Shown here: one piece after another, positions 31,674 through 61,769 of the stretch
Position numbering within the stretch: position 1 is the stretch's first letter
How the letters are laid out: each line of letters begins with the position of its first letter
Notes under the pieces: generated by a model
The model's input: only the letters and a program-made list of their open reading frames with translations
What the model was told of the DNA's origin: nothing
The model's database searches: none
Assembly: GCF_036373705.1 (NCBI RefSeq)
Contig: NC_089861.1
Coordinates: 192,001-256,000, forward strand
Direction of reading: 5' to 3'
From: Amia ocellicauda
Lineage: Eukaryota; Chordata; Actinopteri; Amiiformes; Amiidae
Length of the DNA: 64,000 bases
Position numbers and translations under genes: made by a program

Positions 31674-34600
31674 TCAGTAGTAGGGGGTCTGGCTGGAGAG
31701 GAAGACCCCCGGACCCCCCTGTGTGGCGCTGGCCAGGGGCAGGGCGGGGGGCAGAGGGTAGCTGGGGTAGGACAGCGCGGGGGGGGACAGGCTGGGAGAC
31801 GCAGGGCCATGGAAACTGCAATCTGCAACACAACACAATAACAACTCAGTGACACACAACAGCAACAGAGTGCAGAGAAGACAGACAGAGGGAGGAGAGC
31901 AGGACGGAGTAGTGCAAAGAAGAGAGAGGGAGAGGGAGGAGAGCAGGAGGGAGGAGTGCAGAGAAGACAGACAGAAGGAGGAGAGCAGGAGGGAGAGACG
32001 CTGCCCACCTAGACTCCACAGGGCGGTCTGGGCTGCCAGCTCCTTGGCGTCCTCTAGCAGGGGGCAGGCCTTGTCGGGCATGAAGCAGCGGCGCGCGTCG
32101 GCCAGGACCACCTTGAAGAGCAGCAGCGCGCGGCCATCTGGACCCCCGGTGGCGTACAGCTGGTACTCAGGGGGCGCCCAGCCGCTCTTGTGGCAGTAGT
32201 AGTCGAGGTGCGTCACAGCCGAGCAGAAGCGGCTGGGCTTCAGGGAGTAGATGCTGATGGCAGTGAGGCCGGCGCCGGGGCAGGGGGGCTTGGGGACCCC
32301 GTCGGGGCCGGGCGGAGGCGCGAGGACGCCCCGGGGCCCGGAGGGGGGGGCGGCCTCTTCTCGGGAGGGGCCACCCTGCCCTCTCTGTCCGTAGCGGCGC
32401 CGGGGGTCTCGGGTCACCGGCTTGGCCAGCGTGACCTCCACGGGCGAGCCGTCGATGAGCAGGCCCTGGGAGGCCTGCAGCGCGGCCAGGGCATCCTCAC
32501 GTGTGCGGAAGTGCACGAAGGCGTAGTCCGACAGCTTCTTGACGCGCTCCACCGCGCCCGGCCGGCAGCGGCTGAACTCGCAGCGCAGCGTCTCCTCCGA
32601 GGTGGACAGCATCAGGTTGCGCACGTACAGCACCTTCACGCGCCGCATCGTCTCCTCGTCCACGTCCTTCTCTGGCTGCGCCCAGTTCACCTGGATCGTC
32701 TGCCCCCACAGCTGGAACATGCCTGAGACACACAGACAGAGACAGAGACAGAGAGAGAGAGACAGAGAGAAGACAGAAGACGTCAGAAACCACATGACAG
32801 ACAAATGCCCAGAACAATCAGACTACAGGTGTCCCTGGACAGAGTCTCACAGCTGAACATTCACCAGCTAGAGAGACCTGAGGACAAGGACATCATCCCA
32901 CAGAGACAGCACCTGGACAGAGTGTCCCACAGCAGAGACACGCCTGAGAGACGCACAGAGGACAGAAGAGCTGGAGTCTCCTGATGGAGGACAGTCACAG
33001 ATGCATGTTCTTGGGAGTCTAAGCCCCACTCGCAGAAATCTGTGCAGAATCGGCAGCCCAGTGCAGCCCAACGCAGCTCCGAAACATTGCTGTGCGAGGC
33101 GAGCTGTGGCTGTGAGACAAACCACGATGCAGAGATCAAGAGGGGGTGTGAGGCTGAACTGCTGAGCGGATCCGCGTCTCACCCGTGCCATCGCTGTCAG
33201 AGTGCAGCTCCGGCACATCGGCACTAACGATGCTGAGCGTCGTGTCCGCTAAGCGGCCGCGCTGCGCCCCCCAAAACACACCTGGGATGAGCTTGCGGCG
33301 GGCCAGTGCCGCGGCCTTGTGCGACTCGTACTCCACGAAAGCGAAGCCCCGGTTCTTGCTCTTGTCGCCGGCGCTGGGGTACACGATGACGTCCACCACG
33401 CCCTCCGTCACCTTCCTCATCTCCTCCAGGATCTCCTCCCGCCGCCGGTCCCTGTGCACGGAGCCCACGAAGAGGCGGCAGTTGTCCAGGCTGACGCAGA
33501 CGCCGATGCAGCGGCCCGGCCGGATCTCGTGGTCGTCCAGCAGCCGGATGGCCCTCTGGGCCGCCTCCCTGCAGGTGTACGTGACGAAGGCGTAGCCGCG
33601 GTTCTCGCCGCTGAACTCCATCATCAGGCGGAACTCGTAGATGCGCCCGGCACGCTCGAACACGGGCACCAACGTGTCCTCGAACACGTCCCGCGGGATC
33701 TTCCCCACGAACACCTCGCAGCCCCGCGGCGGGGGCGGGCCCTCCCAGCCTGGGGGTAGAGAGGGAGGGAGGTGAGAGGGGGAGAGAGGGAGGGAGAGAG
33801 ATAGTGGTGAGAGGGAGGGAGAGAGAGAGAGGCTGTGACTCAGATAGATAGTGTAACACAGGTGAGGAAGTGCTGTCGGTGTTCCAGCATCAGTCTTGTC
33901 CTCAAAGAAAATGAAAAGCAGTAATTAAAATGTAACGTTAAAGACACTTTCTTTCTTCTAAGAGTGTCACACCGATCAGCCATAGCATTCTGCCCACTGA
34001 CAGGTGAAGTGAATGACACTGATAATCTCGCTATCATGGCACCTGTCAGTGGGTGGGATGTATTAGGCAGCAAGTGAACATTTTGTCTGAGCGACTTTGA
34101 CAAGGGCCAAATTGTGATGGCTAGACGACTGGGTCAGAGCATCTCTAAAACTGCAGCTCTTGTGGGGTGTTCCCGGTCTGCAGTGGTCAGTACCTATCAA
34201 AAGTGCTCCAAGGAAGGAAAAGCGGTGAACCGGCAAAAGGGTCATGGGCGGCCAAGGCTCACTGATGCACGTGGGGAGCGAAGGCTGGCCTGTGTGGTCC
34301 GATCCAACAGACGAGCTACTGTAGCTCAAATTGCTGAAAAAGTGAATACTGGTTCTGATAGAAAGGTGTCAGAACACACAGTGCATCGCAGTTTGTTGTG
34401 TATGGGGCTGCATAGCCGCAGACCACTTAGGGTGCAGAACTGGACCACGGAGCAATGGAAGAAGGCGGCTTGGTCTGATGAATCACGTGGATGGCCGGGT
34501 GCATGTGCGTCGCTTACCTGGAGAACACATGGGACCAGGATGCACTATGGGAAGAACGCAAGCCAGCAGAGGCAGTGTGATGCTTTGGGCAATGTTCTGC

Positions 34601-35758
34601 TGGGAAACCTTGGGTCCTGCCATTCATGTGGATGTTACTTTGACACGTACCACCTACCTAAGCATTGTCCTGCCACAAAGCAAAAATGGTTAAAGAATGG
34701 TTTGAGGAACACAACAACAAGTTCAAGGTGTTGACTTGGCCTCCAAATTCCCCAGATCTCAATCCAATCAAGCATCTGTGGGATGTGCAGGACAAACAAG
34801 TCCGATCCATGGAAGCCCCACCTGCTGCTAACGTCTTGCTGCCAGATAGCACAGCACACCTTCAGAGGTCTAGTGGAGTCCATGCCTCGACGGGTCAGGG
34901 CTGTTTTGGCGGCAAAAGGGGGACCTACACAATATTAGGCAGGTGGTCATAATGCTATGGCTGATCGGTGTATAATAGCGCTGTCTCTAAAGAGCTGCCC
35001 TGCGACTCCCCGGTGTCCCGTCCAGAGGAACAACGCACTGTGTGTAAAGGAGCTGAAATGGTGACGCACTGGCTGCTGTGACACAGTGACCTGCACTGAC
35101 TCTAGTGCTCTCTGTCTCCGCTCTGTCAAGGCGCCCAGTTGACACAGCGCTGCGTCACGCTCTTAACTCTTCTGTGCCTCATCGTTACAGGCGAGTCACT
35201 CGCACCTCCTGCTCTTATTCTCCCATCCCTCTCCCTCATTTCTCACTCAGAGCCTTTTTTCTGCCTGTCTGTGTCTCAGGACAATACTCCACTCAGCAAG
35301 AGACATGTCTTCTGTCCACCGTGAGCCGCTGCTTTTACACAATAACCAAGAACACAGCGCTTCACGATCAGACCTTGTCTAGATGCGCCGGACTGATCGG
35401 TGTGTCTGAACCGGCTCAGACCAGGGAGGTCAGTCAGAGGGATGTCTCTTCACTATTGCACACATCACTGAGGCTGCAGCTCCGTCTCTGACAGGAGCAA
35501 AGAGCTGAGACATGTCGGCTCTGCTAGAGAAACACCAGACACACCTGAACAGAAACCTCACTGTGGAGGGCAGACACTGAAGAAGGGATGAAAAGAGAAG
35601 AGGAGGAGTGTACCTGGGGGCGGGCCTCCAAACTTCCTCTGTCCGTTCTCCTGCACCATGCTGTAGCCTGTCCTGTCCATCAGAGCCAGCAGGGCCGCTT
35701 CATTGGAGACGTCTGTCCCGCCCCCCCCGGACAACGCCTTCCAGTTCTCCTCAGACAT
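31674..35758 (-). CDS. rbm46: RNA-binding protein 46, four coding exons
   Basis: Exons on the minus strand: 35758-35614, 33749-33282, 32722-32009, 31822-31674. All have GT/AG borders, all introns are phase 1, and the product is 491 aa (human about 533). Exon 1 starts MSEENW and has the family signature [20 protein letters not shown]. Three RRMs follow at about residues 61-139, 141-223 and 234-305, with RNP motifs such as [17 protein letters not shown] and DYAFVHF. A double-stranded-RNA-binding-like domain lies at about 357-442 ([17 protein letters not shown]), then a Pro/Ser-rich tail ending QTPYY. The start and the [10 protein letters not shown] motif fit RBM46 rather than A1CF or RBM47. RBM46 is a germ-cell RNA-binding protein needed for meiosis in mammals. 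The coding exons are very GC-rich, and residues 306-356 form a short Pro/Gly-rich linker. A Tc1 element lies in intron 1. Confidence 0.95.
33970..34970 (+). mobile_element. Tc1-like transposon in RBM46 intron 1
   Basis: The ends are inverted caccgatcagccata repeats, with TA at the right flank (34971-34972) and CA, a likely mutated TA, at the left. The transposase frame starts at 34114 ([19 protein letters not shown]) but has lost about 20 residues before [10 protein letters not shown] and shifts frame after WSDES. It runs antisense to RBM46 and is inactive. Confidence 0.92.
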
Positions 35759-45400: not shown

Positions 45401-47416
45401 GATCCCATTCCCACTGACGCATGAGCCAGACATGAAGCTCCCGTAGGATCTTTACTATTGTTTACAAGGGGTCACACACACACACACACACACACACTGT
45501 CACTTACAGTGAGGGGAAAAAGTATTTGATCCCCTGCTGATTTTGTACGTTTGCCCACTGACAAAGAAATTATCAGTCTATAATTTTAATGGTAGGTGTA
45601 TTTTAACAGTGAGAGACAGAATAACAACAAAAAAATCCAGAAAAACGCATTTAAAAAAAGTTATAAAATGATTTGCATGTTAATGAGGGAAATAAGTATT
45701 TGATCCCCTATCAATCAGCAAGATTTCTGGCTCCCAGGTGTCTTTTATACAGGTAAAGAGCTGAGATTAGGAGCACTCTCTTAAAGGGAATGCTCCTAAT
45801 CTCAGCTCGTTACCTGTATAAAAGAGACCTGTCCACAGAAGCAATCAATCAATCAGATTCCAAACTCTCCACCATGGCCAAGACCAAAGAGCTGTCCAAG
45901 GATGTCAGGGACAAGATTGTAGACCTACACAAGGCTGGAATGGGCTACAAAGACCATCGCCAAGCAGCTTGGTGAGAAGGTGACAACAGTTGGTGCGATT
46001 ATTCGCAAATGGAAGAAACACAGCTCGTTACCTGTATAAAAGACACCTGGGAGCCAGAAATCTTGCTGATTGATAGGGGATCAAATACTTATTTCACTCA
46101 TTAACATACAAATCAATTTATAACTTTTTTGAAATGCATTTTTCTGGATTTTTTTGTTGTTATTCTGTCTCTCACTGTTAAAATACACCTACCATTAAAA
46201 TTATAGACTGATCATTTCTTTGTCAGTGGGCAAACGTACAAAATCAGCAGGGGATCAAATACTTTTTTCCCTCACTGTATGTGTTGGCTGCTGACTGATC
46301 ACTGCTGAACCTGCTGTGATTAACGCTGACAGGATGTAGTGCTCGGTCTTGTGAATGGGGAGAAAAGGAAATATTCAAACAATTAGGAGGCAGTGCCAGA
46401 TGATTTATCCTGATTAATCCTGTCCTGTCATTTTCATTGAAGCCATTTCTCTTATTCAGAAATGTATTAGCAAAGAAAACCTCAGTCTCCCATGTTTAAC
46501 TGTACTGTTTAAGGACTTTTAAGACCATATATGTGCTGTGAACTGTCCCAAAACTGCCTCAAACTGGGCATGAAACAAGGGGGACAACAGATTTTCTTGT
46601 TGAATTATTTAAAAGCACACTGATTTACTATGACAGCTGAACGTTTTTCTGATCAGGAAAAATAAATAAATTGTTCACAAAAACCTTTCTTCACATCTAG
46701 AGTCACGCTGTGTATTTAGTTAAAGACATGTAGGAGAGTCTGAGATGAGTTGAATCAAAACAGTTTGATGAAAAGAGGAAACTGATTCTGTGTGATGCAC
46801 GACTTCAGCTGTAACCTCTTGCTGAGTAGCTGTGAGGGCAGTGTCATTGTACAGATGATTGTCTTCCTCTCTGATGTGTCAAGACAGAACAACAAGGAAA
46901 CACACAGCATACCTGGAAGGTCTGGAAGCTGATAGCCATCCCGTAGCGGCAGTACATGACAAAGTGTTCGCAGTTGTACCAGAGCAGACTGTATCCGGTA
47001 GAGCCCAGCAGCTTCTCAGCCCTCCTGGCCACCTCCTCTCCGCTCAGGGGTGGCCGGCTGCACAGCTGGTCCGTGTGGTTGACCAAGATCTCAGCCCCGT
47101 AGGCGAAGTCCTGCACCGTGTCCACCCTGACACTCGCCACCTTCGAGATGACGCCCACAAGCAGCCGGGTGTTGGTCACCATTTCCCTGATGGCGGCGCT
47201 GTCCTTGGTCAGCACAGGCAGGATGTCGGGGATGAGGTGCGCCACCTTGTCATCCCCCAGGTAAATGCCGAAATGTGTGAACAGAGTCCGGGGGACCTCC
47301 AGCAGGTCTCCTCTCTTGAAGAGCGACACGTCGTAGCCGGTCCGGGGCTCCTCCTTGTCCTTCCTCGGGGGGAACAGCAGGCTCCACAGTCCCTGGAGAA
47401 GCTGGAAAAGAAACAT
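39418..47416 (-). CDS. lrat: Lecithin retinol acyltransferase, two coding exons
   Basis: The exons are 47416-46913 (168 codons) and 39570-39418 (50 codons and stop), joined in phase 0, CAG|GTATGC to CCCCAG|TTC. The 218-aa product is close to human LRAT (230 aa). It moves an acyl chain from phosphatidylcholine to retinol, making retinyl esters in the ER membrane. Visible parts: N-terminal hydrophobic segment (residues 2-16), NlpC/P60-like core with H48 in [12 protein letters not shown]60 in KVAHLIPD and the nucleophile C149 in YNCEHFV, a conserved block [15 protein letters not shown], and a C-terminal membrane anchor (from about residue 183) ending LTLWMAS. The last exon has diverged from the usual IRDQRSVL block (it reads VCSRKSAL). 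The 7.3-kb intron has two Tc1 elements. RBM46 follows downstream, as in human. Confidence 0.95.
39571..42491. other. LRAT intron, proximal part, no other gene seen
   Basis: Several frames of 60-190 codons occur, none with a recognisable domain. They are taken as chance frames in intron sequence. Confidence 0.55.
42492..43314 (-). mobile_element. Tc1-like transposon in the LRAT intron
   Basis: Same family as 33970-34970, with caccgatcagccataacatt at the left and the inverse at the right. TA flanks the left end (42490-42491). The transposase frame 43170-42631 runs through WSDESR and then jumps to the C-terminal part, so the middle of the DDE domain is deleted. Confidence 0.92.
43315..45506. 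other. LRAT intron, distal part, no other gene seen
   Basis: No transposon end or coding region was recognised. It ends in a CA run at 45472-45497. Confidence 0.55.
45507..46277 (+). mobile_element. Tc1-like element with long inverted repeats, internally deleted
   Basis: It is 771 bp with inverted repeats of about 250 bp (cagtgaggggaaaaagtatt at the left) and TA on both sides (45505-45506, 46278-46279). The core keeps only the first 30 or so transposase residues ([20 protein letters not shown]) before the frame breaks. The long repeats recall IR/DR-type Tc1 elements. It probably cannot move by itself. Confidence 0.92.
46280..46912. other. LRAT intron next to exon 1
   Basis: No feature was recognised beyond the exon 1 splice donor at 46912. 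Confidence 0.5.
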
Positions 47417-47540
47417 CTTGGAAGCGTGGAGGACGTGCGCAGTGCCAGCTTTTATCCCGGGAGTGCTGGGAGGAGCCCGGGGGTTTATGGTGCGGAGTGT
47501 GGGAATCTGAGGGGAAGGGGGAAGAAATCAATTGAAAGGG
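47417..47540 (-). promoter_or_regulatory. Possible LRAT 5' region with TATA-like box
   Basis: On the minus strand gataaaag lies at 47449-47456, about 35 bp before the ATG. That leaves a very short leader, so the true start may be in an upstream non-coding exon. Confidence 0.25.
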
Positions 47541-48373
47541 CTTTTCAGAGTCAAATTTTCATGAGTCAGCTTCACTTTGCTTAGAATATATTTGAAATAT
47601 AAATTATGTATATAATTTATTATTTGTGCTGATAATTTAATTGACATAAATCTGCCTTTGTACACCCATGATTTGGATTCCTGGTGGAATGTTGATACTT
47701 TCTCAAGAAATTGAATTATATAAAAACAATGAGAGATGAGTTGTGTAATAAGCTTACTCAGTCATTGTGGCTGAAACATATAATCCCTTAATCTGAAAAA
47801 CTGCCACTTGTGTTCAGAACACTTTTTTTTTTTTGTTAACTAATCTTTCATTACACAATGTGTTGCTTAACACTGAGGAACAGCACCTTATGTGTCCCTC
47901 GAGAGGACAGCTTTACCCTGCATGTAACTCGTACCCTTCTTCTACATTTTACAGTGTTTCACAATTGCTAAGACACATTTCTTGAAACCTTCACCCATTT
48001 TCTCCAAACTTTAAACACAAAACCAAATCTTCAAACTACATTCACAAAACCCCCTGACTTCTGGCAAAATCAGACAATCGCCTCAAAACCATTTAATCTG
48101 TGCTCAAAATCAAACCATGCTTTCAGATCATACGCACAGCCAGTCAACATATAAACACTACAGAGCATTCATTAGACACTACATCAAAAAATGGAGAACA
48201 CGGCATCCAGGGCATGTAGTTACAGAAAAAAATGTTTATGTATATAGTAAATGCATTTTGCAATTTAAAAAAAAGTATAGTAATCACAACTTAGTGCAGT
48301 GAATATGCTGTATACTGTAAGAACTGCAAGTAATACAGTATTGAATGTCTGTATATTCAGCACTTGCATAATA

Positions 48374-50239
48374 CAGTTTTTCCCAATTGTTTACATGTTT
48401 GCTGAATCTTTGGCTCATTTTCCCAAAACTCTAAACACAAAACGCAAAATGCAAAACTCTACAAATCTCTAGAAAAAAGCAAACACATTCAAAACTGTTT
48501 TATCTCTTTCCAAAATGTTTTCTTGCATCAAAATGACACACACGTGTCATATGAATATATCTGTCTACCAGCCAACAACACACTGATGTGCTCAACGCAA
48601 AACACTACTATGAATATCCCATCAGTAGGTTTATGCCTTTTGCATTTTCAGTGCTACACTGTAGCCGGTTGTAAAAGATTGTCACAGTAATGTATACCTA
48701 CTCAAATATATATAAACAAACTCCAAAATGCGATATTTTTGAACACTTGTGTTTTGTATGTAACACTTTCCATACCCAACAGGAGAAAACCAGGAAAAAC
48801 ATTCAGTTTTCTGTACAAAAATTCTTTCAAAACTCTAAACACAAAAAGACAAAAACACATGCAAAATGTAGGACAAAAGAAATTTGGCTGCATCCCGCCT
48901 CCTATTTTGGTCTGGCCACAGCACCTCATCTACATCACAAGCGATGTTCTCCCTGGCTAAACAGCGGGGAAAGAATCTTCTGGAGTGATGGATCCAGCCG
49001 CCGAAAGCCCCCACATCAACTTCACCACATGCCTCCTCCACTGCCTGGAGAAGAGGCACGCGTGCGAGATGGCAGTCATACACCTTCAATCTCCATGCTG
49101 AAAAAACTTTTCAATTGGGTTTAGGAAGGGGGAATATGGTGGGAGGTATAGAACAATAAATTGTGGGTGGTCGATTAACCAGTTGCGGACCAGAGCAGCC
49201 CGGTGGAAACTCACGTTGTCCCAGATGACAACATACCTGGGCTTCTCTGGTCCACCCCTCTGCTCGGCTGGAATGAGGATGCCATGTAGTGTGTCCAGGA
49301 CTGTGATGAGTAGGGCGGTGTTGTATGGACCAAGGCTGGCATGGTGATGGAGGACGCCTTGCTGGCTAACTGCTGCGGACATGGTGATATTCCCTCCACG
49401 CTGTCCAGGGACATTCACAATGGCCAATAATTTTCCATCCCCATCCCCTTCTTTTGGCTAGATTGATGCCAGCCTCATCAATGTAAATATAAACGTGCTG
49501 AATTGCAGCGGTATCCACCTCCAAGAGTCTCTGAAAGAGACAAGACAGTATGTGAAATAGACCTAGAGCAGTCAATATGGTGAGGCACAATACACTGGAT
49601 TACAGTACTGTAATGTGTCTATACAGTGCTGATATAATAGTCAATTCACAGTATAATACTTACTTGCACATATTCATAGCGCTGTTCTTTAACCCTCTCT
49701 GAGTTTTGCTCAAATGGCACCCTGTAGACCTGTTTCATCTGTAATACATGGTCCAATGTAGACAAGACCACCTGGTGAATGTTATTGAATATTATGTTGT
49801 CTGCAATTATGTGGTTCTGGATTTCTCGTAGTCTAATGGTATTGTTTGCCACAATAGCGGTCTCCTGTTCTGGTGTGAACAGCTGGTGTCTTCCACCATG
49901 GTTTGGCCATCTCTCAGTTCTGCAGAAGATCCACAAATATGATATGATTGGTTACAGTAAGCTAAAATAATCTATTTTCTTTCAGTATGAAATGACATTA
50001 CTGTAACATTGGCCAACAATCACTGACTAACATAGGCCTACTGATAGGACTGCAGTATACTACAGTATACATACATAAAGAGCATAGTGTGGATGTTAGG
50101 CAACTTACCGGTTCTCATTTCTGAATGTATGGATGATAGATGCAACCATGTAACAGTTCAGGTTGGGCTAAACTCTCTGCCCAGCCTCCCTCATACTCAA
50201 TCCATGGTTGAACACATGGTCAACCAATGTGGCCCATAT

Positions 50240-50298
<59 letters not shown>

Positions 50299-51961
50299 TT
50301 TTTCTTGGCAGACGCCCTTATCCAGGGCGAATTACAACATAAGTGCAAACAAAGTGAAAAAATACAGAGAAGTACAAGGCATCAATCATTACAAATTCAA
50401 TTTGGCTAAAACAGCAATTCAAAATACATTTTACAAATTCCAATTTACAATTTACACAAGTACCTTAAGAGACTTCCTACATCCTGGACGGTGAAAGCTA
50501 AGTGCTGTCAAGATGTAGGGTTACAGACGAGGGCTACGGGAAACGGAGCAAGGAGGAAAACAATCAAGAACGCGAGAAGTATAATAAAAACTGTGAAGTG
50601 CTTTCTAGCAGGGATAGAGGACTAATATTACAAGTACTGTCGGAAAAGATGCGTCTTGAGTAAGTGCCGGAATGAGGTCAAGGACTCTGCTGTTTTGACT
50701 TCGGTGGGCAGGTCGTTCCACCATTTAGGGGCCAGGGATGAGAAGGAGCGGCTCTGGAGGAAGGAGAGTGGAGAGGAGTTAGTCTTCTGGCACTGGAGGA
50801 GCGCAGTGGTCTGGAGGGGATGTATGGAGAGACGAGGGACTGAAGGTAGCTTGGTGCAGTGTGGTCAAGACAGCGGTAGGTGAGGGTCAAAGTCTTGAAC
50901 TGAATGCGTGCCGCTATCGGGAGGCATTGGAGGGAGCGGAGCAGTGGAGTAGCGTGTGAGAATCATGGCAGAGAGAATATCAGACGAGCCGCAGAGTTCT
51001 GGATGAGCTGGAGCGGCGGGTAGTAGATGCAGGCAGGCCGGCCAGGAGGGAGTTGCAGTATCCAGGTGGGAGAGGACCAGTGACTGGACGAGCAGCTGAG
51101 TCGAGTAGTCTGTGAGGAAGGGACGGATCCGGTGTATGTTGCTCAGGAAGAATCTACAGGTGCGCGTCAGCGTGGTGATGTGCTGGGTGTAGGAGAGCAC
51201 AGGATCGAGGGTGACTCCTAGATTTTTAGCGGAAGAAGAACGAGAGAGTGTGGTGGATTCCAAGGGGATCGAGATGGGGAGGTCAGCAAAAGGTGAGGAA
51301 GAGTAGGGGAAAAACAGGAGATCCGATTTGGAGAGGTTGAGCTTGAGGTGGTGCAAGTGCATTCAGGCAGAAATAGCAGACAAGCAGGAAGAGATGCGTG
51401 AGGGGATGAGAGTGTCAGAAGAGGGAAAAGACAGGAAGATCTGGGCATCATCAGCATAGAAGTGGGAGGAGAAACCATGGGACCCAGGGAGCCTCATCTG
51501 AGACAACTGTTCTTCCTCAGTCTCGTCCTCCTCTTCCTCCTCTTATTCTCACTCCTTGACCTCTAGCTCTTGCTTCACCATTGACTTCCATTTTCCTCCA
51601 AGACAGGAGAGCTCAATTGTGGCATTTTATAGTGCTAAAGCTCTGATTTCTAAGTGAACAATTCAGCAACTAGTGTTCACACCTGTGAGGAGTGGGTTTT
51701 GCCAATTGGTGTATAGAGCTTGGCATTGTGATTGGCGTTGCTTTCCAAAGGGACTACAGAGATTTTAATTTTGAATGTTGTGCCTAATGTAGAGAACTGT
51801 GTGTAGAGAAAAGTGTGATACAGAATTGGAAACTGAGTGTAAAGCAGGAATTGTTCTTGCAATTTTGCAGACTTGGTTTAGGGATCTGGTACATGAGTTT
51901 CAGGTTTCGGTGATTGCGTTTCACGTTCCAATTTTAGTGTGTAAACAATTGGGAAAAACTG
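48374..51961 (-). mobile_element. ISRm11-like element C, inserted in the host element
   Basis: It has inverted ends cagtttttcccaattgttta. Minus-strand coding exons: start near 51594 (MEVNGEARARGQG), continuing after the L2 at 50240 to a donor near 50109; 49936-49663 (FTPEQETAIVANN, MKQVYRVPFE); and 49528-49086 (IYIDEAGINLAKR, VIWDNVSFHRAAL, LPPYSPFLNPIEKF). The three catalytic acidic residues are in IDEAG, WDN and NPIE. Exon borders show GTAAGT donors and pyrimidine-rich acceptors. Stops and an L2 insertion make it inactive. Confidence 0.87.
50245..51492 (-). mobile_element. L2 LINE 3' part with 5-bp target duplication
   Basis: The minus strand codes for the L2 reverse transcriptase from the YADD catalytic box (near 51450) through LNLSKSDLLFFP and AKNLGVTLDPVLSYTQHI to the C-terminal part, with frameshifts. 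The end carries the cagacgcccttatccagg motif and (TTTA)/(TTA) repeats. CTCAT flanks both sides (50240-50244, 51493-51497). Taking it out rejoins the first exon of ISRm11-like element C in frame. Confidence 0.92.
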
Positions 51962-52454
51962 TTATACAATAGTCCAACTGCAAGAGCCCAAAGAACAAAG
52001 ACAACTCTAAATGAAAAGCACATTACAGTACACTCAAACATGTTGTGCAACTGCAAAATCAAAGTCAATGAGAGATGCATTGTGCCTCACGTCTTTGTGC
52101 ACTGCGTCCACATCACAGGCAGCACTGTCCCTTGCCAGACACCAGGAGAAAACCCTCTGGTGTGCTGGATCCAGCCTTGACGACACTCCACACCTCTGTT
52201 ACCACAGGCCAGTTCCATTGCCTGGAAGAGATTTTCCCTGGTATATAGGTTTCGGTCATAGACCTTCCACCGCCACGCAGAGAAAAACTCTTCTATTGGG
52301 TTGAGACCACCCAGAAATGTAAGAAGATGTTCAGTGTTATATGGCCCCAGGGTTGCCCCAAGGTGGAGAACCCCACGATTACTTATGGCTGCACAAAGGG
52401 TGGCATTGCCACCATGCTGGCCAGGGACTTCCATAATGGCATGTTGGCCAATTA

Positions 52455-55226
52455 CAGTTTTTCCTAGTCATTTATACACTGTGACATTTCTGTGGAATGA
52501 AGCTTCATCTCAATTTGCGAGTCCAGTTCACTCATGTTGCAAAACACTACACACAACTCTCAATGTGAGCACCACTATCATTGAGAAAACACCTGCACCA
52601 TTTGTGCGAATACATGAGTCACCAGACAAAACTCAAAGTGCTAATGCACTACAACACACTTGTGCAAACCCAATTAACCAAATTGTTCACTCAGTTCTCC
52701 TCGTTATTTCAAGTATAAAAAAGGTTACACGACTCATGATTGTACAGGAAAAATGGAGCAACAAAGAACAGAAAGGGGAAGAGGTAGGGGAAGACACAGA
52801 AGATGAGGAAGGCGATGGAATATATCGAATGAAATAAGAGCCACACCGTTGATAGTGTAATCATCCATGGGATGAGGACGCTGGGCAGCGAGTACAGCCC
52901 AATTTATGCCACTTTAGTGTGGCTGGAATCATCAGGACATTCAGGACTACGAACTGAGTGGGTTAGGGTTAGTGAGTGAGTGGGTATAAATTTACCATGC
53001 ACAATATGTGGCTTTCATATATCAACAAGAGTACTGCCTGTCTGCACATGACATTGTATTGTTTTCATACAGGGTTGAGAGAAGACCAGCTGCTGGTGGG
53101 AGAAACTGTTTCTTCACCCAAGAACAACAGGCTGAAATAGTTCACATGGTGTTGGCAAATAATGCGATTAGACTTGGAGAAATTCAAACATGTATAATAG
53201 AGGATGTTTCAGAACATACACCATGTTTCAATATCCACTATTGATCATTTGCTGAGAAGGCACAGGATGAGCACGAAGCAAATATATCGTGTACCATTTA
53301 AGAAACATAAGAAACATAAGAAAGTCTTTCATGATTTTGAAGACTTGGATCAAGTCCCCACGTAGTGTCCTCTGTTCCAGGGTGAAAAGGTTCAGGTCCT
53401 CAGTCTCTCAGTAGGACATTCCCTTCAGACCTGGAATAAGTCTGGTTGCTCTCCTCTGAACTGCCTCTAGAGCTGCGATATCTTTCTTGAAGTGTGGAGC
53501 CCAGTACTGTCCACAGTATCCAGATGAGCTCTAACTAGTGCATTGCACAGTCTGAACATCACTGCCCTTGTTCTCAATTCTACACTTTTGACAATATACC
53601 CTAGCATTGTGTTTGTCTTTTTTATTGCTTCCTCACATTGTTTGGATGGAGAAAGTGAGGAGTCCACATAGACTCCTAGATCTTTCTCATGCGTTACTTC
53701 ATCTAGTTCTGTTCCTCCCATAGTGTAATTATAGTGGACATTTTTGTTACCTGCATGTATTACCTTGCACTTGTCCACATTAAATTTCATCTGCCAGGTA
53801 TTGGCCCACAACTGAATATTATCCAAGTCCTTTTGAATAGCCTGTGCTGCCGAGATTGTATCTGCTGAGCCACCTATTTTAGTATCATCTGCAAATTTGA
53901 CAAGTTTGCTAACTATCCCAGAGTCCAGATCATTAATATAGATTAGAAAAAGCACAGGCCCTAGTACTGATCCCTGTGGAACTCCACTAACAACCTCACT
54001 CCAGTGAGAAGTTCATAATCCATCTACTTACATTACCCTGAATGCCTACAGCTTCCAATTTGAGGATCAGTCTTTGGTGTGGAACCTTATCAAAAGCTTT
54101 CTGAAAATCTATGTATATCATATCATATTTGAAAGGAACTCCGATCATTTGAAAGATGTGCTAATTCTATGTGCCAGTATGAATCTGTGTATAGTACTGT
54201 TGTGCACTGGGCAGAGACAGAGGCACAGAGGAAGTGCACTAATGCACCCTGTTCTAATCACGGCTCCTGAATGGGCAGAGAATACTGGAGCTTGATGCCA
54301 GTGATGAGCACAATGAGCTCATCTATGTGGACGAGGCAGGATTCAATCTGACCAAGAGGCGGTGCCGAGGCAGGAACACCATTGGCCACCGAGGGGTGGC
54401 GAGGGTGGAGGTCCCTGGCCAGAGGGGTGGAAACACAACCATGTGTGCTGCTGTCAGTCAGAAGGGTGTTGTCCATTGCCAGGTCACACTTGGCCATTAC
54501 AACACCGCACTCTTTCTGGTATTCCTTGATGCAGTGTAGGACCTTTTTTCCCCACCCCCGGAGAGACAACATAGGGCCCCAGGCCATAGCACTTATGCTG
54601 TCATATGGGACAATGTGAGCTTCCACCATGCAGCGTTAATCCAAGACTGCTTCACCAACCACCCCCAGATCCAAATTATTTTCCTTCCACCATATTCCCT
54701 TGTCCTCAATCCAACTGAGGAATCTTTCTCCGCTTGGCGATGGAAGGTGTGTGATTGGACTTTCATCAGCAAGTGAGTCTTCTCCAGGCGATGGAGGAGG
54801 CCTGCGGCGATCTCTCTGCACAGTCGTGCCAAGGATGGATATGTGTTATATATAAATACATTTATAATTTGTGGGTGGCCAGGATCAAACTTTATATAAA
54901 ATAAAGTTCTTCTTTACTGGCTGTGTTGGTGGATTCTTTTTGTCTTCCTACATGAATCTTCCATTTTGACGAGAGAGCTTTATTTTTCTAAACACAGTGC
55001 TTTTTTTTTGCTCAGTGTGAGAAACAGATATGATGTGTGTGTGTGTGATTCTGACCCGATTATTTGATTTTGAGGGCTGTGTATATAGTTTTTAGGCCAG
55101 AATTTCATTTTCACAGTGTGTGTAAGGTTTTGTAGATGTGACTTTTTATAATGGGCATTGTGTTAACAGTTTAGGGGTATTGGGGTATTATTCAGAGAAT
55201 AGTGTGAATGCAATTGGCAAGAACTG
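52455..55226 (+). mobile_element. ISRm11-like element B, inserted in an exon of the host element
   Basis: It has ends cagtttttcctagtc (left) and an imperfect inverse (right), with TA on both sides (52453-52454, 55227-55228). Plus-strand exons: from 52753 (MEQQRTERGRGRGRHRR), from 53073 (FTQEQQAEIVHMVLANNAIR, then QIYRVPF), and from about 54272 (YVDEAGFNLTKRR, VPGQRGGN, VIWDNVSFHHAAL, LPPYSLVLNPTE). Frameshifts and stops are present and a CR1 fragment splits the second exon. Confidence 0.87.
53300..54126 (-). mobile_element. CR1-like LINE fragment nested in element B
   Basis: The minus strand codes for reverse transcriptase with the KFADDTKIGG catalytic box (53955-53467). The 3' end has the CR1 aagaaacataagaaa tail. 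ATTT lies at both borders (53296-53299, 54127-54130). Element B coding continues on both sides: YRVPF before, NSDHLKD after. Confidence 0.88.
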
Positions 55227-55800
55227 TATGTTCCTGCCTCTCTATCTCTTCGCCAGATTGAACCCTGCTTCATCTACATGGGGCCTTTCCATGGAATCCA
55301 ATTCAAACACTCTCTATATATAAAAATAGATAAATTAGTAGTTAGTAGTAATTGATACAGAAAGACAGACTTCTGCAACAGTGTCTTTGTATGCACTCCT
55401 GATTTACATACACCACAATATAGTGCAGTTTACAGTGACAGTAGGCTAGTAGCACAGAATTGTACTGTAAGCATCACAGGGTCTGAATGTACACTTACTT
55501 GCACATACTGAACTCGTAGATCTTTGACCCTTTCTGAGTGGCACTCAAAGGGTACTCTGTACACTTGCTTCATGCGTACCCTGTTGCGTTGGAGGACACG
55601 GTCAATGGTAGAAAGGCTGACACTGATGATTCCTTCAAAGTTTACATTGTGTTCAACAACTCTTCGCTGTATTTCACACAGTGGAGTGGCATTATTTTGA
55701 AGGACCATATCAACAATGAGAGCCTCTTGCTGTTGCGAGAACATAGCAGTCCTTCCACCCTCATGTGGTAGTCTTGCAATTCTACAATAAGGGAAAAATC

Positions 55801-58397
55801 CACATTGTCATTCCATGAACATGAACAGGAGCACTACGTGGGCAGAGGAGCAGTCAGGTGGGCAGCACCAATAGCGGTCAGATGTTCCCATGCATGGCTC
55901 GAATTTTACATTTGTTTGCAAATATGTAGCATGTGCTGCGGGGGGGATTATGCGCAGCCCTGTGCATGCAGATGTCTCCAGCGTTGCCAGTCCACCCCAG
56001 GGTGTCAGAGAAAGTACTGTGTGCTGTGGCGTGTTGAGCTGCCTGGGACACAGCTGTCTCAGTAGTACAGCACGGCCTGGCTGTGTGGCACATTCTGAGT
56101 TGGAGCCAGCAGGAAAAGAGGACAGGACCAATGCAACACATTAGATTATTGATTTTCTTACAGATATTTACTGAAATTACTGTGTTTAGGTACTTATCCT
56201 CTGCTGATCGCATCAAAACTAATGCGCCACGATTATGTGTAGAAACAAGTATCTTCAGTGTTAGCAGTTCGCACCATGATTTACACTTCACATCACTTTA
56301 ATGAGCGGCTGTAGAGGTTAGACTAGAGGAAAGAAATGTCCGTCAGTGGAATCTCTGAAAAAAAAAATGTGTAGGCAGCTTGATGTGATTTTTTATATAT
56401 CAGTTGGACATTTTGACTTCCTTGACTACCCTTGGCCTAAGTCTCTGTCTGTCTGTCCTTTCCTGTCCTGTCCTGTCCTGTCCCAGCTGCTGGAAGTGTT
56501 TATTTTTGTTGATTATCAATAAACCTTTTTGAGTCTAGGCTTTATCCTTTAAAATCAACCCTGACCTGGACACATCTGTAGGCATTGACCCGTTGTTGGC
56601 GAATGTCTATTGAACTGGTCAGCCTCTGATGCTGGACCTTTAGGTAACTGAGCCATCAATTGGCTTTTGGAAGTGAGGGGAGCGTCACCTTTGTCTTACA
56701 ATAACAGCTCCCCACATCTGCTTAGGCAGTTAAACAGTAATAGGATTACAGAGCATTTTCACATGAAATCCACTTAAGATCCACGCGGCTCACAGCCTGA
56801 AAACACGGCCACAGTCCCCCCCGTTGAGTGCGGCGCAGCTGAATGTTGTCCTGGCCGAGAGGCTTTCCCACTCAAGACCTCAATTGGTTGAAAGAATACA
56901 GAGAGAGATGTCGAATTCACTCAAGGAAGGTTTCAGAAAAGCTATTGTTTCACACACTAAAGTGCAGACCACAACCAGAGGATATGAACTGTACTGACAG
57001 TGTTACACTGGAACGTTTATATTACCTTTAAACTGCATGGGAAGGCCTTCGAAGACTGTAAAGGAGTGTAAGAATCAGTGTTTCAGTCCCTCAGCTCTAC
57101 GTAGCGGAGGAACAGTGACAGGAGGGAGCACAGTAACAAAGACACACAGACAGGTCTCAGAAAACAGACCAGGAGACGCACTGGAAAGTAAGGGAGGGAG
57201 ACCCGAGGGGCAAACTAAAGAAACTCCAGCATCGCCCTGGGCCTTGGACTGCTTTTGTCATCGAATTGTATTATTATTTGTATTATTTTCCAGGATAGGG
57301 TACCAAGAGAGAGAGACTGAGACGGAGAGACAAATAACTGGCAATAACTATATATATAATACACATTACTTTAACCTCTTGCAATTTCAGAGCACAGTGA
57401 GAAGGTGACGGTACTGGGGTTTCATAATCCTTACACAAGCCGGCTCTCATTACTGCGGCTCGGCTCTTACATCACTTCCATGTTTCCAGGGCGCCGGTGT
57501 CGTGGCACGTACTGGCATCACAGGCAATTAAAGCCAGGCTTTCTCAGCCAGCCTCCTGCACTGGGTACAGCCTCGCAGCGCAGCACTGCGGACGGGACCA
57601 CTGAATACTGGTCAATTAACAGCCCCCTGAAACATCACGTTTCCAAAGGTACCAGCTAAGGGTCAGTGAAGTGCGAGCCTCCATCAGCTAAAGGAGCTCC
57701 GGTCCTCTGGGCTGAGAGGAGTCCAGGTGCTTGTTCTGAATTGTGTCTGAATGACCGTCAATTCCTCTTAAATCATCTAAAAACAGCTCTCCTGTATGAC
57801 CGCTCCCTGCCAAACATTTCATTGTTGCTCTAAATAAGACTGCACTGCACGTCCAATAGACTGTATTTCAAGGTGTTTTGGTACTAAAAATGCCCTGAGC
57901 TGCTCCTGTGAATCTCAGATGCATGTGAGAACTGAGAGCAAAGCATCCAAGCGATTCCATGATAAGCTGGACATCCATGTGAAAATGACAAAATGCCAGA
58001 CTGCTTCAGCCACAGGGCTGTTTTGATGCTGCAATGAATCAGACGACCGAATCCACTGTGATTTCCATGAGCGTGACTCTTGTGCATCAGTACTACAAAC
58101 GATGTTCGCGTAGAAAACAGCTGAAGGTCTCGGGTGTATGTTATTGCGTCAAAGCCTGCCTTTAATAAGATGCTTATATCATTACACAGAACACAATGAA
58201 CCGCTTCACAGAGGCTCGATCAGCGCGAGGAAGAAAAGCTCCTGCATTCCAAGTACAAACTGACTCATTATATATTCATGAGCTTCAGTTGTGTTGATCA
58301 TGTTGGCGCCCCCCCACTCCTTTCCTCTCAGCTTTGGCCCCCACGATCCCCACTGTACCCCCCACACACACACTCACACACACTCACACTCACACTC

Positions 58398-58441
<44 letters not shown>

Positions 58442-59121
58442 CTGTTTTACATAAGAGCTGCAGATCATATTAGCAGCATGCGATTATGCAGATTATGCCA
58501 GCTGCTGTACAATCAGTTAGTCCTGGGAATTTCTTTAACCCCTCCCCACCCCCCCAAGAAAACAAAAGTCAAGCCTGGGGGTTTCTGGGGGTTGTTTACT
58601 TTCAATGGGAGTGTGTTTTTGGTTTTCTTTTCAGGAGAATTTGCCTTAAAAGCCCTCTGGTCCAGGGCAGGCAGTCCCTCTCCGCATCAGAGCTCCATGT
58701 TGCAGCCTGTCCGTGGCAGTGCAGTTGCTGACAGACGCCGTGTCTGCGCTGTGGAGGAGCTGCGGTCGCTAGGCTGGCTCCCTGACCGGGGCGGTGCTGC
58801 AAGTCGCTCTCGCAGTGAGAAGATTGCGGACGTGAAGTTGCACATGTGAAGGAACAATCTGCTGTGAAATGAATGGGTTTTCCTCACTAACAGCGTTCTG
58901 CACAGCAGTGTGGTTGAGAGATAAAAGCGCTGCTGCAGCACCATAGTAAAACATGTTTTTACAACTGTTTACAAATAGTGTGAGGCCTGCAGCACCTACT
59001 CAAAAGAACATTTTGTGCGGTACACATATGCCCATCATAAACTTAAAAACAAAAGTCTCCCAGTAGTTAGAAACTTTACATGTCTTTTTACAAAAGTCCC
59101 AGGCACACTCAGAATGGTTTA
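55801..59121. other. Intergenic DNA upstream of LRAT, no gene recognised
   Basis: It contains (CCTGT)n at about 56456-56485 and a CA microsatellite at 58362-58440. Frames of up to 171 codons are low-complexity or overlap on opposite strands. The missing 5' end of the host ISRm11-like element may lie unrecognised at the left. Confidence 0.5.
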
Positions 59122-61765
59122 CAGTTTTTTACAATCACTTTGGCACTAATTTCAGAACCTTGATGTCATTTTTCAAAACTCTAGATGCAAAAATCAAAAC
59201 GGTCATCACAGGCTGTCCAATATTCAAAACATTGCATTGTGCATTCAAGAAACTTTAAAGAAACCTTGCACTTGCAGAATCAACTTATTTATCATGAAAT
59301 ACCATAGGAACATTAATTTAGATCACCCACACACAAGATACCGATAGTTTCACTGTGTAGTTGCTCGTACAATCATTAAATATTGTAGTACAAAATATGT
59401 GATACATGTTTCATTATGGTACTACACGTACATACATCACTGTAAAAGGACTAGTAGAGAGAATACTACAGACACAGTGGAATCATTGAACAAACTCTGA
59501 TATGTATTGATGAAATACAAGCAAATCACAACATAAGAGTCTTTGAATCAAAGCACAAATAATTAGCTACAAAAATGAAATAAACTTCAGTAAAACGTCA
59601 ACTGCAGTGTTCCTCACCTGGCTTACTGTAAAAAGCAAAGGATTGATTACTGTACTTCTATATCTCATCACCCCTGTCTTGTGGATTTGGTCACAGGTTC
59701 TTATCTGCATCATGATGGATGTGTTCATTAGCCAAGCATCTTGGGAAGAGTCTTCGAGCACGGCGCATCCAGGCCTGACATTGGTGTGCTGTGATGTCAT
59801 TGCATGCGTCATCCATGGCCTGGAGAAGGGTGACTTGTTCGTGAGGGCGCCTGTCATATACCTTCCACCTCCACGTGGAGAAAAATTCCTCATTTGGGTT
59901 AAGGAAAGGAGAGTATGGGGGTAAGTACAGGGTGCTAAATTGTGGATGGGCCTGACACCATGCTTGTAGCATTTGAGCATGGTGGAGCCTGACATTTCCC
60001 ACACAATTACATCGGTCACACCATCAGCTCTGCAGAACTGATTTAGCTCATCAAGGAAGGTTACAAGGAGAGATGCATTATATGATCCAATATGAGGTCT
60101 GTGTCCCACCACACCATCTTCCGATAGACGCACATATGGTGATGTTGGCCACACGTTGGCCAGGTACTTGCCCGCTGGTCAATGAAATTCCGACCTCTCC
60201 TCCTTGTCTTGGCCAGGTTGAAGCCTGCCTCACCCAAAAAAATGAATTTGTGATGGTTTTCATCATCATCCAGCTCCATCACCCTCTAAAAAGACATTTT
60301 GGAACGAGAATTACTGATTACAATGATGTAGAATTTTGGGGGAATTTTTCACAACAGGCATCTTGAAACTGAACATACCTGAACATACTCAGTGCTCAGC
60401 TGCTTCACTCTGTCTGCATGTCTTTTAAAAGGCACATGGTATCGCTGTTTTAGAGACACCTGCTGCCTTTTCAGCATGTGTGCAATAGTCACCACACTTA
60501 TGGCTTCCACGTTGTTGAACATGTCGTCATTGTCCAAGATGTGCTGCCGAATGTCTGTATGGCAAATATCATTTCTGTCCCGAACCAAACTGACCACAGC
60601 CACTCTTGTTGGTCAGTCAGAATTGTGCCTCTGCCTCCCCTATTTGGCCTCGTCTCTATTCTGCAGGGAAAATGACATTAAGAATACATTCAGTCACATC
60701 ACCCACTCTGTGGTGCACATTGGCATGCAGTATACAGTCATTTGACTAATGTTTAGTGCATGCTGAAGACTTGCAGAAAGTTCTGATGATTGAGGCCACG
60801 GTTGATCTTCTTGGGTTTGGGTGAATCATTGTAGCTGCCTCAGTCATTGTCATGCCATGATTTATGACATGGTCTACAACTATAGCTCGGGTTTCATTGG
60901 ACACTGTTTGCTGCTGCCGCTGTCTTGGTCCGTGGCCTTGTCCTCTACCACGTCCCCCCACACCTATCAAACGAGGCCCATGGCCACCTCTCAGAAGGAG
61001 TGTGTGTCCCCAGCCATTCCTTTGATCACCACGTCTTCCTCGTCTTCCTCCTCCCACTGCTTGACCTGGATCACCTTCTTGCTCCATGTTATCGCTGTGT
61101 TGTTGAGGTGTATACCACTCATTTCACTATATACTCGTACCACAATGTGAAATCAATCATCAGTAACGAGTGCCAGTATTGGAAAAGCAATTACAAGGGC
61201 CTGCATACATGTAGTAATGTCAAATCTGAAAACATGGTGTGGAAAAGTGGTACATGAGACCATAGAAACAGTGTCTGATAAAGAATGATGATGAAATATT
61301 ACATCCATAGATAATGTAGTCCAACTGGTTCATGTTCCTCAGTTATTGGTGTCAATGGATCTCATTATCCTGAAACTTTCATGATCAAAACATGGAATAT
61401 TGTTCGTCAGTTTCCATAAAACTATGCATTAAGAGTAATGCAACAGTCACCTATCACCTATGAGCAGCTGTATCAATTGATAGTTAGATCTTTGTAATGA
61501 AATGAATAGACAGTGATCTCAGATGTAATGTGTGAATTGCATTTTGAAATGGTAATACTTTTTAATACAATTAAGTTGTGTCATTTTGAACAGGTGATTT
61601 TAGTTCATTGAACAAATGATCTGAGGTTGATGTGTATTGTATCCAAGCAATTGGAAAAAGTGTTAGTTTTGAAAAATGTGCATTTTGATCATCGGTTGTG
61701 AGTTTTGTGTCTAGAGTTTTGAGAAATGACACCAATGTTCTGAAATGAGCGATTGTAAAAAACTG
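59122..61765 (-). mobile_element. ISRm11-like element D
   Basis: It is 2644 bp with inverted ends of about 60 bp (cagttttttacaatcacttt) and TA on both sides (59120-59121, 61766-61767). Minus-strand exons: 61087-60750 (MEQEGDPGQ, Gly/Arg-rich, then VVDHVINHGMTMTEAA), 60600-60380 (HVPFKRHADRVKQL, ending YVQ) and 60282-59690. The first catalytic Asp is lost (LGEAG instead of IDEAG), and a frameshift follows VIVWE. LPPYSPFLNPNEEFF keeps the Glu. It is a different subfamily from A-C, judged by its ends. Confidence 0.88.
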
Positions 61766-61769
61766 TAAT

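Follow-up and report, generated by a model that had tools for sequence, protein, structure and literature searches.

The window analyzed here is a 64,000-nucleotide stretch of Amia ocellicauda DNA (contig C18, positions 192001-256000 of a 988-Mb assembly of 385 contigs) in which four ISRm11-like transposons, denoted A, B, C and D, are located between positions 47952 and 61765. ISRm11-like is the group name used in the original prediction for this DNA and is kept as a putative affiliation. Elements A, B and C form a nest: B and C are embedded in A, and each harbors a fragment of a long interspersed nuclear element (LINE), which we take to be of CR1 type in B and of L2 type in C. Elements A, C and D are on the minus strand and B is on the plus strand. 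When pieces of A, C and D were used as tblastn queries, the window yielded no ISRm11-like copy beyond these four, except for a cross-match of Tc1 type at 34665. That A, B, C, L2 and CR1 were assembled into the nest by successive insertions is virtually certain.

Element A is the minus-strand host that carries minus-strand C and plus-strand B. Its 3′ terminal part, which includes the 3′ end, occupies 47952-48373, is bordered by TA at 47950-47951 and finishes in two bases that form the TA target of C; the terminal 79 bp are 76% like the end of C. The middle part (51964-52454), recognized by alignment with B, C and D, comprises the 3′ half of the catalytic exon and the start of the 3′ untranslated region (UTR). 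The remaining portion of the 5′ side (55229-55803) was identified by tblastn and contains the start of the catalytic exon, an intron and exon 2. Exon 1 was not found in 55800-58300, no 5′ end was found beyond about 55803, and the end sequence of A was sought up to 64000 and not found. The 5′ side of this copy is accordingly truncated. Moreover, ~170 bp of the catalytic exon are missing at about 52305, in the stretch with the residue that we assume, from the family motif, to be the second catalytic aspartate. This deletion is private to the copy in the window because the A-family copy at locus L049 on contig C6 holds the ~170 bp and further A copies with matches to the left and right of 52305 retain a similar spacing, e.g., 167-170 bp on contigs C6, C19, C2, C3 and C10.

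The L049 copy possesses neither insert and aligned at 87-90% from the left part of A via the middle to the right. The 3′ terminal part (89.7% identity) is continuous there with the middle part, which in turn adjoins the first 250 bases of the 5′ side. Where the window has C, L049 reads GCATAATAATACAGTAG, and where it has B, GGCCAATTATGTTCC, with a single TA in each case. As this unoccupied copy crosses both sites, it confirms to the base the nest and the element ends that were originally proposed, and the plain TA at each site matches the target that had been predicted. Element C is flanked by TA on one side and by TT on the other. Since the empty site reads TA, the TT on the right arose by mutation of a TA; the alternative of a 1-bp insertion at this position was rejected on the same evidence.

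Element B (52455-55226, plus strand) is inserted into the catalytic exon of A, as established from its ends, its plus-strand coding blocks and the empty site, and is flanked by TA at 52453-52454 and 55227-55228. The expectation that removal of B restores an in-phase reading from the RGRN motif was borne out: the flanks of A rejoin as RGRN followed directly by IIGQHAIMEVPGQ in one frame. Without B, element A also reads in a single frame through DEAGFNLAKR, a stop and RGRNIIGQHAIMEVPGQ; this stop lies away from the junction. The CR1-type LINE is a minus-strand 3′ fragment (53300-54130; RVT_1, E=9e-13) inserted in exon 2 of B with a 4-bp duplication, ATTT, ending at 53299 and 54130. When the fragment is removed, exon 2 of B reads on as YRVPFERNSDHLKD. 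Among 20 B loci fetched from elsewhere in the genome, the two halves of B meet base-to-base at the CR1 site in five (L009, L015, L017, L018 and L026) and within a few bases in L019 and L027; the remaining 13 have deletions or gaps at this site.

Element C (48374-51961, minus strand) is inserted into the 3′ UTR of A, as determined from its ends, Pfam matches and the empty site. Its coding blocks are at about 49089-49457, 49661-49930 and 50123-50242, and the two ends of the C body are identical at 23 of 23 bases. Element C matched Pfam DDE_3 with E=9e-15, above the model cut-off, and NCBIfam transpos_IS630 with E=2e-17, below the cut-off of that model. Plasmid transposases were matched at 33-40% over 81-93% of the query (20 records of 708). 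The L2-type LINE, also a minus-strand 3′ fragment (50245-51497), was placed in exon 1 of C by its junction and the reading frame: a 5-bp duplication, CTCAT, ends at 50244 and 51497, and exon 1 reads through as VVSDEIWATLVDHVFNHG when the fragment is removed. The longest open reading frame of the L2 fragment produced no match in Pfam or PDB.

The order of insertions had been described as exactly readable. This stands for A before B, A before C, C before L2 and B before CR1; B and C cannot be ranked against each other, nor can L2 and CR1. Judged by sequence identity, the LINEs look younger than the transposons: 39 other L2 places are 95-96% identical (from the best 40 of 3764 first-look candidates, and thus an upper view) and CR1 copies elsewhere in the window match at 80-97%, compared to 78-90% for listed B copies and 73-91% for listed C copies.

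Element D (59122-61765, minus strand) is the fourth ISRm11-like copy in the window. It is not nested, retains both ends and a long inverted repeat, and is flanked by TA at 59120-59121 and 61766-61767. Its inverted repeat, CAGTTTTTTACAATC, differs from that of the other copies; ends like CAGTTTTTCCCA and CAATTGGGAAAAACTG are largely common to A, B and C, and less so to D. The DNA identities over exon 3 were 58.2% (A-B), 64.0% (A-C), 56.3% (A-D), 59.9% (B-C), 57.7% (B-D) and 61.2% (C-D). Protein blocks of A, B and C were 43-59% identical, with one 17-residue block at 82%, whereas blocks compared with D were 25-62% identical. Among the places listed, genome copies matched the A copy of the window at 69-95% and the D copy at 70-96%, the top values for the subfamilies being over short stretches. 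Thus, the original view of repeated insertion of a single family in a burst does not hold: A to D are four diverged subfamilies at 56-64% DNA identity over exon 3.

The elements have the hallmarks of the IS630/Tc1/mariner assemblage. A DDE transposase of the IS630/DDE_3 kind is present, as matched in C; pieces of A, B and D run alone against Pfam had no DDE_3 match and all align with C. TA target site duplications flank B and D on both sides and were also found for C. Terminal inverted repeats are present in B, where they are imperfect, and in C and D, and A retains its 3′ end only. Counted by eye, the translations show a DD35E spacing.

The distribution of the subfamilies was examined across the genome using, for each of A, B, C and D, the best 40 of 77-378 first-look candidates. 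The candidates for the four probes numbered 77, 378, 302 and 101 (858 in all), which is only a rough guide to copy number. Exclusion of the window copies left at most 39 places per subfamily. Twenty of the 39 B places, the better-scoring ones, were fetched with 8.6 kb each; the 19 left out were runs of short fragments on contigs C5 and C10 and four others. When the near-identical loci L010-L013 are counted once, 17 B loci remain. By tblastn and blastn, a C-type copy was directly at B in seven of the 20 loci (L009, L014, L016, L020, L021, L023 and L026), and B was inside a C copy in three of the 17 (L016, L020 and L021). Junction alignments covered five loci, L009, L014, L016, L020 and L021. 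In L016, C stops at ...CCAAAATA, is followed by B and then resumes at the same TA; both sides are exact with a 2-bp overlap of TA. On the 5′ side of L020 and L021, the match is exact as far as the T that precedes the TA; on the other side, C picks up again beyond a stretch of lost sequence. In L009 and L014 a C end abuts B precisely at a TA belonging to B, on one side each, and the contact with a C-like copy in L023 and L026 has an unclear junction. No ISRm11-like exon was detected at the B copy in 13 of the 20 loci. Among these, L022, L025 and L027 had a weak Tc1-type match only. In L018, L019 and L024 the flank contained 23-177 bp of ISRm11-like DNA that is possibly part of the B copy itself.

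ISRm11-like coverage around B fell from 23.7% in the first bin (0-300 bp) through 15.1, 9.3 and 4.3% to 0.6% at 2.5-4.5 kb. In the same bins, CR1 coverage was 6.0, 7.3, 6.4, 3.4 and 7.7%, without a fall with distance, and Tc1 coverage was 2.9, 2.7, 4.6, 6.6 and 5.9%, without a rise towards B. For this profile, L011-L013 were omitted as near copies of L010 and the extents of B were set by hand. The controls, twenty 5001-bp stretches taken at round coordinates (98,726 bp), contained no ISRm11-like DNA by blastn and a single 44% tblastn match of Tc1-like kind. As any nesting in 2-kb hosts is expected to generate a fall with distance, the telling point is the height near B compared to the control. 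Only relatives peak at B, though the surroundings are rich in transposable elements in general. The guest was oriented opposite to the host for B in A and along with it for C in A in the window; elsewhere the orientation was the same in L016, L020 and L021 and opposite in L009 and L014.

Two side observations concern B. The four copies at L010-L013 (contig C20, 27.12-27.61 Mb) have in common a ~1.4-kb insert between B1 positions 263 and 279 and apparently derive from a single interrupted B copy that was multiplied within a 0.5-Mb interval. Series of B fragments similar in extent and score, eight on C5 (51.77-53.27 Mb) and seven on C10 (40.4-43.9 Mb), suggest that a piece of B was incorporated into a duplicated or satellite-like unit.

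Proximity of the subfamilies was assessed with 39 places each, after second pieces of one copy were merged (41 matches to 40 places, 57 to 40, 41 to 40 and 41 to 40). Five A/B/C pairs lay within 5 kb (four B-C, one A-C and no A-B), compared to 0.046 expected for uniform placement, 0.15-0.74 under four jitters whose maxima ran from 1 Mb to 50 kb, and 0.075 under a chromosome-wise shuffle that used guessed lengths for some contigs. Five such pairs were reached in none of 3000 sets under every jitter and the shuffle. No A/B/C pair was between 5 and 20 kb apart, and eight were within 60 kb compared to 0.55 expected. The L2 control places formed no pair with A, B, C or D within 5 kb and a single one, with B, within 60 kb. 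Pairs of the same family no more than 5 kb apart were noted for C (three) and D (one), some of which may be one split copy, and for none of A, B and L2. In addition, when the 858 candidates are taken as 2-kb copies, the clade occupies 0.17% of the genome, at which B inside C in three of 17 loci has P=4e-6; at the density found 2.5-4.5 kb away the value is P=1.6e-4. Sites of TA numbered 52-62 per kb in A to D, 66 in the control stretches and 51 in window positions 1-47000, and TA density was rejected as a cause as A to D are no denser in TA than the controls. Thus, for A, B and C, nesting in the best 40 places of each exceeded both chance and local density, which was not the case for D. Mutual insertion or contact of A, B and C beyond chance expectation is quite likely on this sample of the best places. 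The suggestion in the original prediction of a target preference for its own sequence is supported to this extent for the relatives A, B and C on the sample covered; D takes no part.

Separately, six of the 40 listed C places fall within ~120 kb on C6 (40.85-40.97 Mb), and A places are nearby at 39.97-40.50 Mb.

Several observations weigh against a preference for relatives. No D place lay 5 kb or less from a place of A, B or C, and one D-A pair was 17.6 kb apart; the contrast of none with the five A/B/C pairs (two-sided P=0.06) is only suggestive. The pair test and the locus survey are not independent because the four B-C pairs are L009, L016, L020 and L023. B and A are paired within 5 kb only in the window, and A-B pairs 23-63 kb apart reflect regional clustering: C18, with 42 of the 988 Mb, holds nine of the 40 A places and five of the 40 B places. 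The lists are the best 40 of 77-378 candidates per family and the B loci surveyed are the better-scoring 20 of 39. At the density 1.5-2.5 kb away from B (4.3%, which includes host parts), three of 17 B-in-C loci has a probability of only P=0.04. The C copy of the window has CA or GA at the TA position of the L020 and L021 insertions and hence the host C copies there must have differed in possessing TA. The B flanks are rich in transposable elements generally, with CR1 at 6.0% versus 0.8% in the controls and Tc1 at 5.1% versus 1.7%, and some near-flank coverage may be B itself because the B extents were set by hand. Finally, insertion points are scattered over the hosts. A common insertion hot spot was rejected as positions differ among the nests.

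The generally elevated content of transposable elements around B and the clustering of A and B on C18 are what would be expected if elements simply accumulate in poorly purged regions already rich in them, where those that land in dead copies persist and nests arise with no preference for relatives; nested insertions are indeed common in mammalian genomes according to the sections consulted of PMC2517846. Such a neutral pile-up is a credible but rather unlikely explanation here, as CR1 and Tc1 coverage does not rise towards B while that of ISRm11-like DNA climbs from 0.6% to 23.7%, and as jitters that preserve regional density never yielded the five close pairs. Similarly, a shared landing environment, the main alternative, predicts that other transposable elements peak at B, and none do in this sample. 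A more trivial possibility is mere chance, the nest having been singled out after many windows were read. When four elements were placed randomly in the window, at least two self-hits occurred with P=0.013, uncorrected for the choice of window. This estimate is weak, the window having been selected for the pattern, and such a value would be unremarkable across many windows and families. The recurrence of the pattern in genome copies outside the window makes this explanation highly improbable.

The presence of four ISRm11-like copies within 47952-61765 could also be read as a recent burst of one family into its own fresh copies. The divergence of the four subfamilies conflicts with this reading, as do the stops, frame changes or deletions borne by the window copies and the lack of near-identical A, B or C copies among the places listed, and a burst is accordingly very improbable. 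Multiplication of one old nest by segmental duplication, or its movement as a composite, would fit the multiplied unit at L010-L013 and the B-fragment runs on C5 and C10. The nests checked differ in host or junction, the insertions being at two sites in A, at positions 1341, 457 and 602 in the C2 numbering of element C and at positions 223 and 383 in the B1 numbering of element B, and the nests are spread over contigs C18, C10, C20 and C7, with L020 on C20 and L021 on C1. Thus, duplication of an old nest has only a slight probability.

The explanation preferred here combines successive insertions, excess nesting among relatives and a tentative end-mediated cause, and is given as a whole a probability of about 0.6. 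Element A is a TA-targeting, cut-and-paste transposon of the IS630/Tc1/mariner type with a DDE transposase encoded in several exons. It was hit at two separate TAs by sister subfamilies, C in the 3′ UTR and B in the catalytic exon, and later L2 entered C and CR1 entered B. An incoming transposase complex may possess affinity for resident copies that have similar ends, with integration then potentially occurring at a nearby TA inside the resident copy. As A, B and C appear to have more of their end sequence in common with each other than with D, incoming elements could become locally concentrated if a transposase-end complex has affinity for resident ends. Attraction mediated by the ends or the transposase is put forward tentatively as the leading candidate for the cause of mutual nesting. 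The more specific proposal that sibling ISRm11-like transposases recognize each other's copies through shared end or subterminal sites and thereby steer TA integration inside them, with homing absent from the sister family D, which has different ends, is possible but doubtful.

Comparisons with known systems draw on parts of the reports cited. ISRm11 is a Tc1/mariner group named in teleosts (PMC4746887), and DNA/TcMar-ISRm11 accounts for 139,673 bp of a 520.64-Mb freshwater fish genome (PMC10770143). The teleost group has the IS630-type DDE transposase and TA target also seen in the window elements; the sections consulted of PMC4746887 and PMC10770143 do not mention nesting, and no report of self-nesting in the ISRm11 group was found in the literature searched, which was covered partly by passages. 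Flanks of 2.5 kb around the Drosophila Tc1-mariner element Bari are enriched in Tc1-mariner elements compared to random stretches, an enrichment at superfamily level that is reported beside an AT-rich target preference in the available part of PMC4877112. Unlike Bari, the window elements comprise sibling subfamilies inside each other and their TA density is not above that of controls. Preferential nesting into same-family copies, termed autoinsertion, is described for some families and species of plant long terminal repeat elements (PMC6911290, in part); these are retrotransposons, whereas the window elements are TA-targeting and cut-and-paste. Transposon interruption analysis of mammalian L1 and Alu elements exploits nests to obtain relative ages and to test for selection, and over 21,000 interrupted Alus are mostly hit by other Alus, which a known target motif explains (PMC2517846, in part). 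No such motif was found for the window elements.

The neighborhood of the nest includes an LRAT-type reading frame on the minus strand at 46844-47527 (Pfam LRAT, E=4e-40). The nest, which starts at 47952, lies ~500 bp upstream of where this minus-strand gene probably begins, and nearly 8 kb of transposons may occupy its possible promoter region. Reading frames of the RRM and DND1_DSRM types are at 31674-33924, also on the minus strand. These genes, together with the kinds of transposon present, would point to a ray-finned fish. A 268-bp inverted repeat with 96% complementarity and arms 247 bp apart is located at 45501-46283 and is presumably a Tc1-type element or a short derivative.

The nest permits clear-cut relative dating; in other respects it is an ordinary set of layered transposons upstream of an LRAT-type gene. 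Repeat libraries constructed from nested copies of this kind can contain chimeras. If the excess of nesting among relatives holds in a full annotation, these low-copy families would make the homing of a TA-targeting transposase on its relatives testable. Homing of this type, if true, would spare host genes and would let related families destroy one another.

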